Below are positions 22,118 to 60,600 of a stretch of DNA of 64,000 bases, in pieces. Within the stretch, counting starts at the first letter, position 1; the number at the start of each line of letters is the position of its first letter. Below the pieces are notes generated by a model. That model made no database searches and had not been told where the DNA came from. It worked only from the letters and a program-made list of their open reading frames with translations. This stretch comes from Kocuria carniphila (GTDB lineage Bacteria > Actinomycetota > Actinomycetes > Actinomycetales > Micrococcaceae), in contig NZ_NOIT01000007.1 of assembly GCF_004136555.1 (NCBI RefSeq), positions 1 to 64,000 of the forward strand, read 5' to 3'. The translations under genes and the position numbers were made by a program.

Positions 22118-22270
22118 CCGCGTTCCGCCCCACCATTCATCGGCTCGCACCGAGCTTCGTCAGTCACCGCCCAACTTGGCGACGACGTCGCTCGGCGGGC
22201 CCCGCGTGGCCCGTCACCTTGGGTGCGTGCTACCATGATCTGTCGGCCCATGTCGTCAGCCAGGAGTTTC

Positions 22271-22864
22271 GTGAATAACCGCAATAGTTCAGCCCTTACG
22301 CACAGCGTCCGGGATCTCGAACACCGTCCGGGGACCATGCGAAACCTGGAGATTGAGGTTCCCGCGCCAAAGGACTTTGGCACGGAGGTCATAGGTTCGC
22401 CAGAAGGCGCGCCCATGGATCTGCAGCTTCGACTCGAATCCGTGCACGACGGTATTCTGGTATCCGGAACCGTCATAGTCAGTATTCACGGTGAGTGCAG
22501 CAGATGTCTCGATCCGATTGACTATGATTTACCGGTCGACGTACAAGAACTTTTCGTGTTCGATGCCTCTCCCGAAGGTGACGAGGACATCGAGGACGAG
22601 CAAGTGTATGAAGTGCGGGACGAGGAAATCGATCTCGAACCCATGCTTCGGGACGCAGTGATCATTCAGCTGCCGTTCCAACCGGTGTGCCGGGCTGACT
22701 GCCCGGGTCTGTGTGCCCAGTGCGGTGCGCGACTCGAGAAAGACCCGGATCACCACCACGAAGTGCTTGACCCACGTTGGTCCGCTCTGGGAGGGCTGTT
22801 GAGCAGCACTGACCAGGGTTCTGACACTTCGGACCAGACAACCGAGACGAGAGAAGAGAGATAG
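22271..22864 (+). CDS. DUF177 (YceD-like) protein
   Basis: A protein of about 197 residues in the YceD/DUF177 family, a widespread protein encoded just before rpmF and linked to rRNA/ribosome biogenesis. It has a CSRC pair in the middle ([12 protein letters not shown]) and a second set, [16 protein letters not shown], probably a zinc site, followed by DPRW typical of the family C-terminus. The GTG at 22271 is chosen because AGGAG precedes it by four bases; an upstream ATG adds 16 residues without support. It is two bases from rpmF, so the two are surely cotranscribed. Confidence 0.85.
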
Positions 22865-22866
22865 CC

Positions 22867-23070
22867 GTGGCTGTTCCCAAGCGGAAACTTTCCCGTGCGA
22901 ATACCCGGATGCGCCGCTCCCAGTGGAAGGCTAACGCCCCCAAACTGGTGAAGACTGTCGAAAACGGCAAGGTGAGCTACAGCCTGCCGCACCAGGCTAA
23001 GGTCGTTTCCGATTCCGCCGGTACCCCCTTGTTCTACGAATACAAGGGACGCAAGGTAGCTGACGCGTAA
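22867..23070 (+). CDS. rpmF: 50S ribosomal protein L32
   Basis: A 67-residue L32 with the conserved start [20 protein letters not shown]. It lacks the CXXC pairs of zinc-ribbon L32 forms, so it is a zinc-independent type. The start codon is GTG with GAGAGAGAT upstream. It lies between DUF177 and rnc with two-base gaps on both sides. Confidence 0.97.
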
Positions 23071-23072
23071 GC

Positions 23073-23777
23073 GTGACTACCATGCCGGATCCCGGTGCAT
23101 TGCTTGAGCGTCTCGGTGTCGATATCGACACCGAGACGCTTCGCATTGCGCTGACACATCGCTCCTACGCGTACGAACACGAGGGCGAGAAGCACAACGA
23201 ACGTCTCGAGTTCCTGGGGGACGCGGTCCTTCAGCTGGCTGTGACGGACGAAATCTTTCACCGCTACGGCGACTGGAGTGAGAGCCAACTGGCCAAACTC
23301 CGTGCCTCCGTGGTTTCCTCACGCACTCTCGCGGACATTGCACGGTCCCTGGACCTCGGTCCGCACATTCGCCTGGGCAAGGGGGAGATCCGAACTCGGG
23401 GCAGCGAAAAGCCCTCGATCCTCGCGGACACCATGGAAGCCCTGATCGGTGCCACTTACGAGTCCGCCGGTGACAAACCAGCCCGGAACTTGGTGCTCCG
23501 CCTCATCATTCCGCTACTCGAAGACTCCCACGTGCTCCATGAGGGCCGTGACTGGAAGACCGAGATCAGCGAGCTCGCCGCCCACCACGGGCTGGGCCCC
23601 GTCCGCTACGACGTCGCTGGCACCGGTCCCGATCACGCGCGCCACTTCGAGGCGTCGGTGTCCCTGAACGGCAAGGTCATGGGCCACGGCGAAGGTACCT
23701 CTAAGAAGGCCTCCGAACGCTCGGCCGCTGCTGCGGCTTGCCAGGCCATCTACGACCGTTACGGACGCAAGGCCTAA
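23073..23777 (+). CDS. rnc: Ribonuclease III
   Basis: A 234-residue double-strand-specific endonuclease for rRNA and mRNA processing. The nuclease signature NERLEFLGDAVLQL carries catalytic Glu46 and Asp50, with the second acidic pair in ADTMEALIGATY; a double-stranded-RNA-binding domain fills about 160-230 and ends with the GTSKKASERSAAAAAC helix. GTG at 23073 begins two bases after rpmF; ATG at 23082 is a possible alternative. Codons 12-23 are encoded by a perfect 34-base palindrome, which in the mRNA would form an uninterrupted duplex of about 15 bp, a potential substrate of the enzyme itself. Confidence 0.96.
   Translation: MTTMPDPGALLERLGVDIDTETLRIALTHRSYAYEHEGEKHNERLEFLGDAVLQLAVTDEIFHRYGDWSESQLAKLRASVVSSRTLADIARSLDLGPHIRLGKGEIRTRGSEKPSILADTMEALIGATYESAGDKPARNLVLRLIIPLLEDSHVLHEGRDWKTEISELAAHHGLGPVRYDVAGTGPDHARHFEASVSLNGKVMGHGEGTSKKASERSAAAAACQAIYDRYGRKA
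23107..23140. repeat. Perfect 34-bp palindrome inside the rnc coding region
   Basis: Bases 23107-23123 (beginning AGCGTCTCGG and ending TCGAT) are the exact reverse complement of 23124-23140. All 34 positions pair, and a G-U pair can extend the base. It falls within rnc codons 12-23. RNase III genes of Escherichia coli and Streptomyces coelicolor are autoregulated by cleavage of stem-loops in their own transcripts, so this is a strong candidate for a cis-acting cleavage site. The palindrome is seen directly; the function is inferred. Confidence 0.95.
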
Positions 23778-24762: not shown

Positions 24763-24775
24763 AGGGGTGGCCACC

Positions 24776-25063
24776 ATGAACGGATATCGGATCGAACGCG
24801 AGTTGACCGAGTTCGGACAGCATGTGCGTGGCTGGCGCATGGTGCTCGGTCTTACCGCGCAGCAGGTCGCCGAGCGCGCCGGAATAACACGGGACACCCT
24901 GCGGAAGATCGAGGCCGGAGACCCCGGTGTGGGATTCGGCAATGTTGCACAGGTGCTGCGCGCCCTCGGTGTTCTCGATCAGGTCGTCAATGCCATCGAC
25001 CCGCTCGGCAGTGACATTGGTCGTCTGCGCGCCGGCAACCTATCGAAGAAGCGTGCACGATGA
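24776..25063 (+). CDS. hipB: HipB-like antitoxin, XRE helix-turn-helix
   Basis: A protein of about 95 residues with a Cro/C1-type helix-turn-helix (LTAQQVAERAGITRDTLRKIE) in its centre and a short basic tail (RAGNLSKKRAR). It should bind its own promoter and neutralise the HipA-like kinase encoded next. ATG at 24776 is preferred because GAAGGGG (24761-24767) is a well-spaced ribosome binding site; a GTG at 24767 overlaps that site. The stop overlaps hipA by ATGA, the usual coupling of antitoxin and toxin. Confidence 0.85.
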   Translation: MNGYRIERELTEFGQHVRGWRMVLGLTAQQVAERAGITRDTLRKIEAGDPGVGFGNVAQVLRALGVLDQVVNAIDPLGSDIGRLRAGNLSKKRAR

Positions 25064-26295
25064 CCACCGTCGAGGTTTTTATGGACCGAGACGGGGACCC
25101 GATCCTGGTGGGGCAGGCGCACTTCACTCGACACCGCAGTCAGATTTCCACAACGTTCCTCTATGATCCGACGTATTTGGTCCATGGCGGGACCAGTATC
25201 GACCCCGCGCTGCCCCTTGTCTCTGGGGCCCAACATCAGGTCGGTCTCGTGCGGGCCTTTGCCGATAGCGCACCCGATCGCTGGGGTAGGAATCTCATCG
25301 AGAAGGCGGAGCGCGTTCGTGCCCGCAGGGAGCACCGATCGCTGCGCAGGCTGGACGATTTGGACTTCCTCCTGGGGGTCAGCGACGACACCCGCCAGGG
25401 TGCCCTGCGGTACCGGATTGACGGCGACGGATCATTTGTCGGTGAGCCGTCGCGCGTTCCTCAACTGATCGCCCTCCCAGAGCTGCTGAGTGCCTCTGAC
25501 CGGCTCTCATCGGAGGACGATCCCAGTGCGGCGGTGAAGCAACTGCTCGAGACCGGTACAACCGGCTTGGGAGGCGCACGGCCCAAGGCATCCGTGCGTC
25601 TCGAAGACGGTGCGCTGGCTATTGCCAAATTTCCTCACTCAAGTGACCGGTGGGATATGATGGCCTGGGAAATGACAGCGCTCGATTTGTTGGAAGCCGT
25701 CGGAATTCGAACGCCCGCTCGGCGTCTGACTGCGGTGGGGGATCGAAACGTGCTTATTCTGCGACGGTTCGACCGCACTGACCATGGGCACAGGATTGGG
25801 TACATCAGTGCCATGACGGCACTTGGTGCCAATGACGGCGATCATCGCGATTACGCAGAGATCGCCGAGGCCATCCGAGATCTTTCACTCTCCCCGAAGA
25901 GTGACCACCGAGAGCTCTTCGACCGCGTCGTTGCATCGGTTGTTCTGGGCAACACGGACGATCATCTCCGCAACCACGGTTTTCTTGCCGATCACGGGTC
26001 TTGGACGCTCAGCCCCGCCTTCGACGTGAACCCTAACCCTGACCCGTGGCGGCCACGCGCAACGTCGATCATGGGGGCCGAGGCGCTCACCGATGAAGCC
26101 GATGCATTGCTACCGCTGGCCGAAGAGTGTGGCATACGCGTTCACCAGGCCCGGGAGCGGATTAGAAGTATGTTGTTGGTGATGACCGACTGGCGCGATG
26201 TTGCACGTAGGCATGACATTCGCGAGCAGGAAATCGGAACAATGGAAGAGTCTATCGACTCGCGCATCGCCGCGGTGTCTGCGGCGATGCGCTGA
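25060..26295 (+). CDS. hipA: HipA-like serine/threonine kinase toxin
   Basis: A 411-residue HipA-family kinase. In Escherichia coli HipA phosphorylates glutamyl-tRNA synthetase and causes persistence; the target of this relative is unknown. Kinase landmarks: Gly-rich loop TGLGGARPKAS at about 168-178, ATP Lys190 in IAKFPHSSD, catalytic loop NTDDHLRNHGF at 298-308 with Asp300 and Asn305, and metal-binding Asp322 in LSPAFDVNP. All appear intact, so the toxin looks functional. Codon third positions look more AT-rich than in flanking genes, in line with acquisition by transfer. It is convergent with oleD across 70 bases. Confidence 0.9.
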   Translation: MTTVEVFMDRDGDPILVGQAHFTRHRSQISTTFLYDPTYLVHGGTSIDPALPLVSGAQHQVGLVRAFADSAPDRWGRNLIEKAERVRARREHRSLRRLDDLDFLLGVSDDTRQGALRYRIDGDGSFVGEPSRVPQLIALPELLSASDRLSSEDDPSAAVKQLLETGTTGLGGARPKASVRLEDGALAIAKFPHSSDRWDMMAWEMTALDLLEAVGIRTPARRLTAVGDRNVLILRRFDRTDHGHRIGYISAMTALGANDGDHRDYAEIAEAIRDLSLSPKSDHRELFDRVVASVVLGNTDDHLRNHGFLADHGSWTLSPAFDVNPNPDPWRPRATSIMGAEALTDEADALLPLAEECGIRVHQARERIRSMLLVMTDWRDVARRHDIREQEIGTMEESIDSRIAAVSAAMR

Positions 26296-38310: not shown

Positions 38311-39962
<1,652 letters not shown>

Positions 39963-39992: not shown

Positions 39993-40037
39993 GCGAACGC
40001 ACCGCGGGGCAAGCAAGGAGCCCCGCGGTGCGTTCGC
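39993..40037. terminator. Strong 18-bp hairpin after glnK
   Basis: An 18-bp perfect stem (left arm 39993-40010 beginning GCGAACGC, right arm 40020-40037) closes a nine-base loop. It lies 31 bases past the glnK stop. No T-run follows, so it may act as a factor-independent terminator of the type common in actinobacteria or as a 3' stabiliser. Confidence 0.75.
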
Positions 40038-40117
40038 CTCGTTCCGGGGACCGGGCTCGGCTTGATAACCTGGGACACTGACCCCATCCGTTGACCGACG
40101 AAAGCAGCGACTGCCCC

Positions 40118-41701
40118 GTGTTCAACTCACTGTCCGACCGGCTTACAGCGACCTTCAAGAACCTGCGCGGCAAGGGTAGGTTGTCCGAAGCGGATGTGGA
40201 CGCCACCGTTCGGGAAATCCGGCGCGCCCTTCTCGAAGCGGACGTCGCCGTTCCCGTGGTCCGGGAATTCACGGCCATCATCAAGGAACGCGCTCTGGGT
40301 TCCGAGGTCTCCGAGGCGCTGAACCCCGGCCAGCAAGTGGTCAAGATCGTCAACGAGGAACTTCAGAACGTTCTGGGTGGCGAAACCCGTCGCATCAACC
40401 TGGCCAAATCCGGTCCCACCGTGATCATGCTGGCCGGTCTGCAGGGTGCCGGTAAGACCACCTTGGCGGGCAAGCTCGGTAAGTGGCTCACGGACCAGGG
40501 GCACAAGCCCGTTCTCGTGGCCTCTGACCTTCAGCGCCCCAACGCCGTGACCCAGCTCCAGGTGGTCGGTCAGCGCGCGGGCGTTCCGGTGTTCGCCCCC
40601 GAGCCCGGTGCCACCTCGGAATTCGACGACCCCACCGGTGATCCCGTGGCGGTTGCCCGCGACGGCGTGGCGCACGCGCGCGCCAAGCTCTACGACGTGG
40701 TCATCGTTGACACCGCCGGCCGCCTGGGCATCGATGAAGCCCTCATGCGCCAGGCCCGAGACATCCGCAACGCCGTGAACCCGGACGAAGTCCTTTTCGT
40801 CATCGACGCCATGGTCGGCCAGGACGCTGTCAACACCGCCAAGGCCTTCGACGACGGCGTGGACTTCACCGGCGTGGTGCTCTCCAAGCTCGACGGCGAC
40901 GCCCGCGGCGGTGCCGCACTCTCCGTTCGCTCGGTCACGGGCAAGCCCATCATGTTCGCCTCCACGGGCGAGGGCGTGCGCGACTTCGAGCAGTTCCACC
41001 CGGACCGCATGGCCTCGCGCATCCTGGACATGGGTGACGTCCTCACGCTGATCGAGCAGGCAGAGAAGCAGTGGGACAAGACCGAGGCCGAGCGCATGGC
41101 CAAGAAGTTCACCGATCAGGAGGACTTCACCTTCGAGGACTTCCTCGCGCAAATGCAGCAGCTGCGCAAGATGGGCTCGATGAAGAAGATGCTGTCCATG
41201 ATGCCCGGCGCAGCCGGTATGCGTGAGCAGCTCGAGAACTTCGACGAGCGCGAGATCGACCGTGTAGAAGCCATCGTGCGGTCCATGACCCCGCACGAGC
41301 GTGTGGCACCCAAGATCATCAACGGCTCACGCCGCGCCCGTATCGCCCGCGGTTCCGGCGTGTCCGTGTCCGAGGTCAACCAGCTCATGGAGCGTTTCGC
41401 CCAGGCACAGAAGATGATGAAGCGCCTGGCCCAGGGCAAGGGAGTTCCCGGTATGCCCGGGGGTATCCCCGGTATGGGTGGCGGCGCCGGAGGCGGCGCG
41501 GGTAAGAAGAGCAAGGCCAAGAAGAAGGGGGCCAAGGGCTCGCGTTCGGGTAACCCCGCCAAGCGCGCTCAGGAGAATGCCGCGATTGCCAGCGGTCAGA
41601 AGCCCGCGGCCAAGGGCAGTGCCTTTGGGGCACAGCAGGATCAGCCGGATCTGGAGTCCTTGAACCTTCCCAAGGGCTTTGAAAAATTCCTCAGAAAGTG
41701 A
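40118..41701 (+). CDS. ffh: Signal recognition particle protein Ffh
   Basis: A 527-residue SRP54 GTPase that binds signal sequences and SRP RNA. N domain 1-90, G1 GLQGAGKTT (107-115), DTAGRLGID, SKLDGDARGG, and a Met-rich M domain (about 300-430) with the RNA-binding SGSRRARIARGSG-type segment. A Gly/Lys-rich tail (GGGAGGGAGKKSKAKKK) extends the C-terminus. GTG at 40118 gives the standard start FNSLSDRLTATF; a TTG 27 bases upstream is less likely. No convincing ribosome binding site is seen. The SRP RNA is not in the window. Confidence 0.96.
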   Translation: MFNSLSDRLTATFKNLRGKGRLSEADVDATVREIRRALLEADVAVPVVREFTAIIKERALGSEVSEALNPGQQVVKIVNEELQNVLGGETRRINLAKSGPTVIMLAGLQGAGKTTLAGKLGKWLTDQGHKPVLVASDLQRPNAVTQLQVVGQRAGVPVFAPEPGATSEFDDPTGDPVAVARDGVAHARAKLYDVVIVDTAGRLGIDEALMRQARDIRNAVNPDEVLFVIDAMVGQDAVNTAKAFDDGVDFTGVVLSKLDGDARGGAALSVRSVTGKPIMFASTGEGVRDFEQFHPDRMASRILDMGDVLTLIEQAEKQWDKTEAERMAKKFTDQEDFTFEDFLAQMQQLRKMGSMKKMLSMMPGAAGMREQLENFDEREIDRVEAIVRSMTPHERVAPKIINGSRRARIARGSGVSVSEVNQLMERFAQAQKMMKRLAQGKGVPGMPGGIPGMGGGAGGGAGKKSKAKKKGAKGSRSGNPAKRAQENAAIASGQKPAAKGSAFGAQQDQPDLESLNLPKGFEKFLRK

Positions 41702-59189: not shown

Positions 59190-59246
59190 ACAAAGAGCCC
59201 CGGCTCGCACCGCTTTCCGTCAGCGGTGCGAGCCGGGGCTCTTTGT
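59190..59246. terminator. Bidirectional 25-bp terminator between DUF3145 and fabF
   Basis: A perfect 25-bp stem (left arm 59190-59214 starting ACAAAGAGCC, right arm 59222-59246 ending CTCTTTGT) with a seven-base loop TTCCGTC. TTTGTTT is part of the forward exit and AAACAAAG of the reverse, so it can end both the DUF3145 and fab transcripts. Confidence 0.92.
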
Positions 59247-59267: not shown

Positions 59268-60530
59268 CTAGACGGAGCGGAAGGCCGCCACGGAGTTGTG
59301 ACCGCCAAAACCGAACGAGTTGGAAATGGCCACCATGTCACCCGAGGGCAAATCGCGGGCCGTGGTCACCACGTCCAGATCGATCTTCGGGTCCTGGTTG
59401 TCCAGGTTGATGGTGCACGGCGCAATCCGGTTCTTGAGCGCCAGGATGGTGAGCACACCTTCCACGGCACCGGAGCCACCCAGCAGGTGACCGGTCATGG
59501 ACTTGGTGGCCGAGACAGCCATGCTGTCCACCTCGGAGCCGAACGCGGCGCGGAGGGCACCGGCCTCCGGGATGTCACCCACGGGCGTGGAGGTCGCGTG
59601 TGCGTTGACGTGCTTGATCTCGGAGGGCTCGAAACCACCTGAGACCATGGACTCCCGCAGTGCGCGCGCGGGGCCACCTTCGTCGCCGATGGCCGGGGAG
59701 GTGATGTGGTGCGCGTCCGCGCTGAGACCTGCACCGGCAAGCTCGGCATAGATCTTGGCGCCGCGGGCCTTGGCATGTTCCTCTGATTCCAGGATGCATG
59801 CTCCGGCGCCCTCGCCCATGACGAAGCCGTCACGGTCGAGGTCGAAGGGGCGCGATGCAGCCTGCGGATCGTCGTTGCGACGAGACAGGGCCTGCATCGA
59901 GTTGAAGGCCGCGATGGTCACGGGGTGGATCGCACTTTCTGCGCCGCCCACGATGACCACGTCCGCCTTGCCCTCGCGGATCAAGTTGAGACCCTGGTAG
60001 AAGGCCTCGGTGCCTGAGGCGCACGCCGACACCGGGGTGATGGCGCACGCACGGGCCTTGAACTCCATACTCACGGACGAGGCATTGCCGTTGGGCATGA
60101 GCATGGGAACGGTCATGGGCTTGACGCGGCGCGCACCCTTGGCCTGCATGGTGTCCCAAGCATCCAAGAGGGTCCACACGCCACCGATACCTGTGCCGAA
60201 GGCCACGCCCACGCGGGTGGGATCCAGTTCGTCGCTGGTGTCCGCGGTGTCGCCGGAGAAACCGGCATCGTTCCAGGCTTCACGTGCGGCAGCCACGGAA
60301 AACTGTCCTGAGGGGTCCAGACGTTTGGCCTGGACGCGGGAAACCACGTCTTCCGACGGGGCGGGGGCGGTCGCGCCGATGCGGACCGCCAAGTCGTATT
60401 GTTCGACCCAGTCATTTTCCAGGGCGTGAACACCGGAGACGCCCTTGAGAGCGTTGGCCCAGGTTTCCTGGACGTTTTCACCGATGGGGGTGATGGCTCC
60501 CAAGCCGGTGACAACTACTTTGCGGGACAT
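59268..60530 (-). CDS. fabF: Beta-ketoacyl-ACP synthase II
   Basis: A 420-residue condensing enzyme elongating acyl-ACP in the type II fatty-acid system. Nucleophile Cys170 (PVSACASGTEA) with His residues in NAHATSTPVGD and KSMTGHLLGG. The start ATG at 60530 is chosen because AGGAAG precedes it by about nine bases; a GTG three codons upstream is alternative. It is the last gene of fabD-fabH-acpP-fabF. Confidence 0.95.
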   Translation of the reverse strand: MSRKVVVTGLGAITPIGENVQETWANALKGVSGVHALENDWVEQYDLAVRIGATAPAPSEDVVSRVQAKRLDPSGQFSVAAAREAWNDAGFSGDTADTSDELDPTRVGVAFGTGIGGVWTLLDAWDTMQAKGARRVKPMTVPMLMPNGNASSVSMEFKARACAITPVSACASGTEAFYQGLNLIREGKADVVIVGGAESAIHPVTIAAFNSMQALSRRNDDPQAASRPFDLDRDGFVMGEGAGACILESEEHAKARGAKIYAELAGAGLSADAHHITSPAIGDEGGPARALRESMVSGGFEPSEIKHVNAHATSTPVGDIPEAGALRAAFGSEVDSMAVSATKSMTGHLLGGSGAVEGVLTILALKNRIAPCTINLDNQDPKIDLDVVTTARDLPSGDMVAISNSFGFGGHNSVAAFRSV

Positions 60531-60600
60531 TATCTGCACTTCCTCGTGTCCGGGATCGCATGGGTTCCGGAGGCTGGCGGTGGCCAGGGGTCCGGTAGAC

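Follow-up and report, generated by a model that had tools for sequence, protein, structure and literature searches.

Codons 12 to 23 of the RNase III gene (rnc) of Kocuria carniphila encode an mRNA hairpin that is conserved by its pairing and not by its sequence, and that is selected as sense RNA. In the family of this bacterium, which was taken as Micrococcaceae (f1), the hairpin over-rides codon choice and some amino-acid choice. It is rather probable, by analogy with known systems, that the hairpin is a target of RNase III itself and serves negative autoregulation of the enzyme. The stretch of DNA analysed, here called the window, comprises 64,000 nucleotides (contig NZ_NOIT01000007.1, positions 1 to 64,000).

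The palindrome and its hairpin

A perfect palindrome of 34 bp at 23107-23140, noticed in a sequence-only reading of the window, was recovered exactly as described by the inverted-repeat search. Its arms, 23107-23123 and 23124-23140, are 17 nt each, 100% complementary and without spacer, and they correspond to codons 12-23 of rnc (23073-23777, + strand). The same reading had predicted an uninterrupted duplex of about 15 bp with a tetraloop. In agreement with this, the RNA of 23106-23141 folds into a stable double-stranded stem of 16 bp within the rnc coding sequence, made of 15 Watson-Crick pairs and an outer G-U pair (23106/23141) and closed by a 4-nt loop, with an energy of -30.7 kcal/mol and a z score of -10.0 compared with 200 dinucleotide shuffles. 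From the base composition of the window, about 1.7e-5 such palindromes are expected by chance per 64 kb, and in 30 Markov-1 versions of the window no loop-free palindrome exceeded a half-length of 11, whereas the real one reaches 17. The features considered here are the following, with the evidence in brackets.

22223 to 22864, + strand: YceD/DUF177 gene, presumably on the rnc transcript (open reading frame list)
22867 to 23070, + strand: rpmF, ribosomal protein L32, separated from the start of rnc by 2 nt and presumably on the same transcript (spacing and the Streptomyces coelicolor operon)
23073 to 23777, + strand: rnc, RNase III of 234 aa, host gene and probable regulated product of the hairpin (open reading frame list, protein comparison)
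23094 to 23152, + strand: outer extension predicted from the window sequence, which adds 9 pairs interrupted by small internal loops (fold)
23106 to 23141, + strand: coding-sequence hairpin of the rnc mRNA, codons 12-23, tetraloop AUAU (sequence, inverted-repeat search, fold, covariation)
23106 to 23121, + strand: 5' arm of the stem (fold)
23122 to 23125, + strand: loop AUAU, variable in relatives and of 4-6 nt in many (fold, relatives' alignment)
23126 to 23141, + strand: 3' arm of the stem (fold)

The hairpin starts 33 nt past the rnc start codon, just downstream of the initiating ribosome. Its predicted outer extension is absent from the consensus folds of the genus and family alignments. 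The covariance models of Rfam 15 gave no match between 22800 and 24000 of the window at E values up to 1.

Host gene and neighbours

A cytidylyltransferase-like gene (coaD-like by eye) is followed, in this order, by yceD/DUF177, rpmF, rnc and a Fapy-DNA glycosylase gene, and the two neighbours that had been named from the sequence, rpmF and DUF177, are correctly identified. The genes yceD, rpmF and rnc are presumably co-transcribed, considering their spacing and the three-gene operon of S. coelicolor (PMC5775266). The closest named rnc relatives belong to Kocuria (95% protein identity for the RNase III of Kocuria sp. cx-455), followed by other Micrococcaceae.

Other parts of the window deserve mention. 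Just 3' of the Fapy-glycosylase gene, 24767-26295 (+ strand) carries an HTH regulator followed by a HipA-like gene (HTH_31, HipA_C), which resemble a HipBA-type toxin-antitoxin pair. A perfect 25-bp hairpin with a 7-nt loop and A/T-rich ends is found at 59190-59246, between the end of a + strand open reading frame (59078) and a - strand one at 59268-60539 (ketosynthase-like by eye), and is probably a two-way terminator. Another perfect hairpin, of 18 bp with a 9-nt loop, lies at 39993-40037. It stands between two + strand open reading frames, one at 38311-39627 that resembles an ammonium transporter by eye and one at 40091-41701 that resembles ffh by eye.

Conservation of the pairing in Micrococcaceae

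The rnc gene was matched in 97 of 99 genomes (none in G023 and G098), and 90 of these loci were examined, 60 from the family and 30 from other families of the order; the matched loci left aside were those of G062, G063, G075, G077, G079, G093 and G095. All 60 family genes keep a 36-nt element with a stem of 15-16 bp. In their first 15 pairs, 891 of 900 cells are paired (845 Watson-Crick and 46 G-U, with 2 A-C and 7 other), while the 30 non-family loci have 285 of 450 cells paired (242 Watson-Crick and 43 G-U, with 15 A-C and 150 other). In 80 named rnc loci, whose species overlap with the 60, 13 to 16 of 16 pairs are formed in every case. The local minimum-energy fold keeps at least 13 of the 15 pairs in 59 of the 60 family loci.

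This pairing exceeds what the protein imposes. A synonymous-codon null built from the family proteins and their own rnc usage gave 10.0 of 15 pairs (sd 0.16), compared with 14.85 observed. A scan of the rnc alignment covered 6145 stems (15 bp, loops of 3-12), the best of which outside the element was 63% paired, against 98-99% for the element itself. The family alignment of the element has a constant length of 36 nt and 11 invariant columns. Of note, CGTCTT codons directly follow the element in many family loci other than Kocuria (for example L033-L059) and might draw the 3' arm into a competing duplex; these codons are not general in Kocuria.

Covariation reaches the amino acids

The sequence-only reading had suggested looking in related rnc genes for compensatory changes that keep the stem, and such changes are abundant in the window's family. 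In 47 distinct family sequences, 97.6% of cells are paired and both sides have changed at 8 of the 16 pairs. Both-side changes amount to 50 cells compared with 11 in shuffles. Not one of the five observed measures was reached in 500 shuffles. When the partner was shifted by 1-3 columns, pairing fell to 32-49%. With 73 sequences from four families, 29 of whose rows had been picked by model R1, 159 cells with both-side changes were counted against 46 in shuffles. The structure is therefore conserved by compensatory change in relatives. Broken pairing without compensation, which had been named as a finding that would speak against the idea, was seen in none of the family rnc genes read, but it does occur in two genera of the related family f8 (g81 and g245, 9 genomes).

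The element spans whole codons, and codon position 2 opposes position 2 across the arms, so that the pairing reaches the amino acids and these covary. The facing codons in the 60 family loci are CGT-ACG (Arg-Thr) in 54, CAT-ATG (His-Met) in 3, CAG-CTG (Gln-Leu) in 1 and AGT-ACT (Ser-Thr) in 1, the remaining locus having CGC-ACG with one unpaired cell. Likewise, the 80 named loci comprise 74 with Arg-Thr, 4 with Ser-Thr and 2 with Ser-Ala (AGC-GCT). At the outer pair, A faces T in 34 of 34 cases, G faces T in 14 and C in 8, and C faces G in 3 of 4. Codon choice follows the stem too: leucine is encoded elsewhere in these rnc genes by CTG (683), CTC (453) and CTT (116), and the rarer CTT is picked where it matches the stem.

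The mismatches indicate which molecule is under selection. The codon null expects 61 G-U and 83 A-C cells, and 46 and 2 were observed. At a strand-blind DNA site, G-T and A-C mismatches should fare equally; the fact that G-U is kept and A-C avoided thus shows that sense RNA is selected and not a DNA site. Antisense and strand-neutral readings are disfavoured by the same asymmetry.

Spread across the order

At an E value of 1e-5, covariance model R2 matched 235 of 245 family genomes (32 of 32 genera), 59 of 60 in f6, 104 of 121 in f8 and 9 of 100 in f19; these are genome matches, not each of them placed in rnc, and G302 and G144 among the 104 of f8 may represent non-rnc places. The genomes missed by this census in the first three families (ten from the family, one from f6 and all 17 from f8) and two f19 genomes were searched with the RNase III protein. 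The protein search gave no rnc match in the assemblies of four of the family misses and of the f6 miss. The hairpin still folds in all six family misses whose rnc could be read; structures are available for L306, L308, L310 and L315, and L314 and L316 share all 36 letters with L308. In the four family misses from genus g14, a bulge of one base separates 11 outer pairs from an inner stem. In L310 (genome G872), the otherwise constant CUC/GAG core is replaced by CGC/GCG with the pairing kept. The RNase III of L310 reads RRGG..ATR where its relatives have RLGV..ETL, which could be an extreme case of RNA prevailing over protein or a sequencing oddity.

On the other hand, all 17 f8 misses have rnc with a partly or wholly broken stem, which is broken in the genera g81 (6) and g245 (3). 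Among the 15 of them that were folded (L327 was not given and L330 was dropped for N), a fold persists in L307, L313 and L326 at z of -3.3 or lower. In the order's other families outside f6, f8 and f19, 24 loci have a mean of 8.5 of 15 pairs compared with 8.0 in the null, and 47 loci of the class have 8.15 compared with 7.3. This near-null pairing and the breakage in g81 and g245 show that the element is lineage-bound. Since the stem is on average near null level or is broken in those lineages, RNase III can do without it.

The pairing sets of f6, f8 and f19 were mostly picked by R1 (14 of 16, 12 of 14 and 9 of 11, respectively), which biases their scores upward; the f6 set does not include L192, a locus with its gene out of frame at the element. 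The f19 set has 142 Watson-Crick, 3 G-U, 3 A-C and 17 other cells out of 165. The rnc gene of the f19 locus L074 has a perfect palindrome of 30 bp, where an Arg codon replaces the usual Gly codon and the base opposite has changed with it. Model R1 at 1e-5 matched only 15 of 394 class genomes, all in the window's own order, and a class-wide presence of the same element was therefore rejected. At an E value of 0.01, R1 matched 138 of 297 order genomes, many of them weakly. Forty R1 matches were fetched, 12 of which were without rnc, all at E 1.8e-6 or weaker.

The same codons in other lineages

In f37, a single genus that we take to be Streptomyces-like, the 18 loci fetched (from 21 f37 genomes) all fold at the same rnc codons with a different sequence. 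The fold has 12 outer pairs, a one-base bulge and 6-7 inner pairs, with a second bulge in several loci and z of -1.7 to -4.4 against synonymous shuffles. The outer stem hardly varies among these 18 loci and consequently displays no covariation. Strong folds also occur in two of five f47 loci (z -3.1 and -5.9), but in none of seven f22 loci (z -0.7 to 2.2). The mean z was -0.5 (minimum -3.2) in 31 other class loci and -0.9 (minimum -5.6) in the 24 loci of other order families. A strong local fold without an in-register stem was observed in L081 (f9, z -5.6), L089 (f5, -3.2) and L259 (f30, -3.0), and these could be further independent hairpins.

In a tree of 120 RNase III proteins built with the element codons excluded, f1 (34 rows) and f6 (6 rows) were well supported, while f8 and f19 were mixed. 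The in-register stem is present in all six f6 rows and in 30 of the 34 f1 rows; the other four f1 rows, scored as lacking the stem, have 11-13 positions paired and still fold. The in-register label needs 13 changes on this tree, at least 8 of them forced by supported branches, compared with 38.4 in shuffles.

The protein motif LG..PEL is partly self-complementary when written in GC-rich codons (7-11 of 15 pairs under the codon null), which may be the reason why the site was available more than once. Tentatively, and with nearly as much to be said for it as against it, the N-terminal codons of rnc would be a recurrent and possibly ancient self-target of RNase III across the class, read in hairpins of different sequence at the same codons, with the pairing dictating several amino acids including pairs that switch together. 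The lineages concerned would be the Micrococcaceae-type family, further families of the order, the Streptomyces-like lineage and part of f47.

Other hairpins

Searched with R1 at E below 0.01, the own genome gave only the site in rnc, matched on both strands, and a single intergenic site resembling a terminator, and thus no second trans target with the hairpin beyond the latter. This second match, C33:144785-144824 (L203 1501-1540), is a terminator-like hairpin lying after a gluconate-kinase-like gene (by eye), and it has GAAGCGTCCC/GGGACGCTTC in common with the rnc element. The 330 nt upstream were scanned with 10-bp stems for another conserved one, such as S. coelicolor has, and none was found: the paired fraction was at best 0.81 in 25 genus loci and 0.80 in 59 family loci, against 0.97-1.0 for the element.

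Proposed function and alternative explanations

Codons 12-23 of rnc would have a dual use, specifying N-terminal residues of RNase III and an mRNA hairpin that would act in cis as a target of the enzyme. RNase III in excess would bind or cut the hairpin in its own mRNA and open the message to decay, so that synthesis would drop; rpmF and yceD, being presumably on the same transcript, would be affected too. A strictly kept double-stranded stem in the gene of a double-strand-specific RNase is most simply its own target, and we consider this negative autoregulation the favoured, although not a firm, explanation. RNase III as the reader, the cutting and the negative effect would each follow the precedents of Staphylococcus aureus and S. 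coelicolor. Several points count against self-cleavage. The stem, at 16 bp, is short compared with a classical RNase III substrate of about two turns of helix, and the consensus fold lacks the longer stem that is predicted from the window. The trans-target search in the own genome, the near-null pairing in other families of the order and in the class, and the broken stem in g81 and g245 weigh in the same direction.

What reads the hairpin might be something other than RNase III catalysis, namely RNase III that binds but does not cut, a different RNase, an RNA-binding protein, or a block that slows ribosomes and tunes translation or folding. The data show a selected sense-RNA hairpin and not its reader, the stem is just downstream of the initiating ribosome, and RNase III may cleave a 16-bp stem without internal loop poorly. 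There is no need, though, for a device of translation in general to be linked to rnc, where R1 found the hairpin in the own genome together with only one terminator-like site, and RNase III is reported to cut within its own coding sequence elsewhere (PMC10126417 and PMC3386247). Such a reader is less likely than self-targeting, of which it is the one serious competitor.

The remaining explanations are far weaker. Perfect dyad symmetry, the constant 36-nt length and the 11 invariant columns would suit a DNA element such as a repressor operator or another symmetric protein site, but a strand-blind site cannot tell G-T from A-C mismatches, as the family does, and the sequence varies as long as pairing is kept, even in the core of L310, which makes this very improbable. 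An even smaller chance is left to a by-product of protein and codon constraint. Random synonymous codons for the partly self-complementary LG..PEL already pair at about 10 of 15 positions and the loci of other families at about 8 of 15, yet the observed pairing is 27 sd above the null, the amino acids covary with the pairing and CTT, a rarer Leu codon, is chosen to match. Refuted as the sole cause in f1, the constraint explains where a stem could begin and not its perfection. A mobile inverted repeat, an intrinsic terminator or an assembly fold-back can also give perfect palindromes, and yet this origin has a next to negligible probability: the DNA search revealed no second copy in the own genome, as a REP-like mobile palindrome would have, the palindrome lies inside the conserved reading frame of rnc, the stem is followed by CGCATTGCG and not by a T-run, and the model matches occur in 398 genomes of three families.

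As a self-target or otherwise, this is a clear case of an RNA structure that lies wholly inside a bacterial coding sequence, that of the enzyme expected to read it, and that prevails over the choice of amino acids in many genera. It is much more general than a single window could show. Its natural compensatory variants are available for testing RNase III self-control in harmless actinobacteria. The N-terminal residues of RNase III in these taxa should moreover be interpreted with caution, as they do not reflect protein constraint alone. Among the literature matches listed, no report of an rnc hairpin was found for Kocuria, Arthrobacter or Micrococcus, which is weak evidence of absence as most subscription journals were not covered.

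Comparison with known systems

RNase III is known to control its own mRNA through a hairpin located at the mRNA 5' end, outside the coding sequence. In S. aureus, RNase III cuts a stem-loop of the rnc coding sequence at U+296, which the authors propose to lower its own mRNA, and this stem-loop is conserved among staphylococci (PMC3386247). The S. aureus and Kocuria hairpins are thus alike in lying within the rnc coding sequence. The S. aureus site is about 300 nt into the coding sequence, in a long irregular helix with bulges, whereas the Kocuria hairpin begins 33 nt in and has an uninterrupted stem. The latter also belongs to another phylum and displays amino-acid covariation, and its cleavage is only putative.

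In S. coelicolor, RNase III encoded by absB (rnc) is reported to cut the polycistronic transcript from which it is made at two stem-loops, and one of these is in the rnc cistron (Xu et al. 2008, as cited in PMC10126417). The operon there has three genes, with the L32 gene and a hypothetical protein gene before rnc (PMC5775266), and the likeness with Kocuria concerns the gene itself and the L32 and hypothetical protein genes that precede it. The Streptomyces-like f37 loci carry a bulged hairpin at the same codons as Kocuria, with a different sequence and no covariation. The published S. coelicolor site in the rnc cistron may correspond to the hairpin at these codons.
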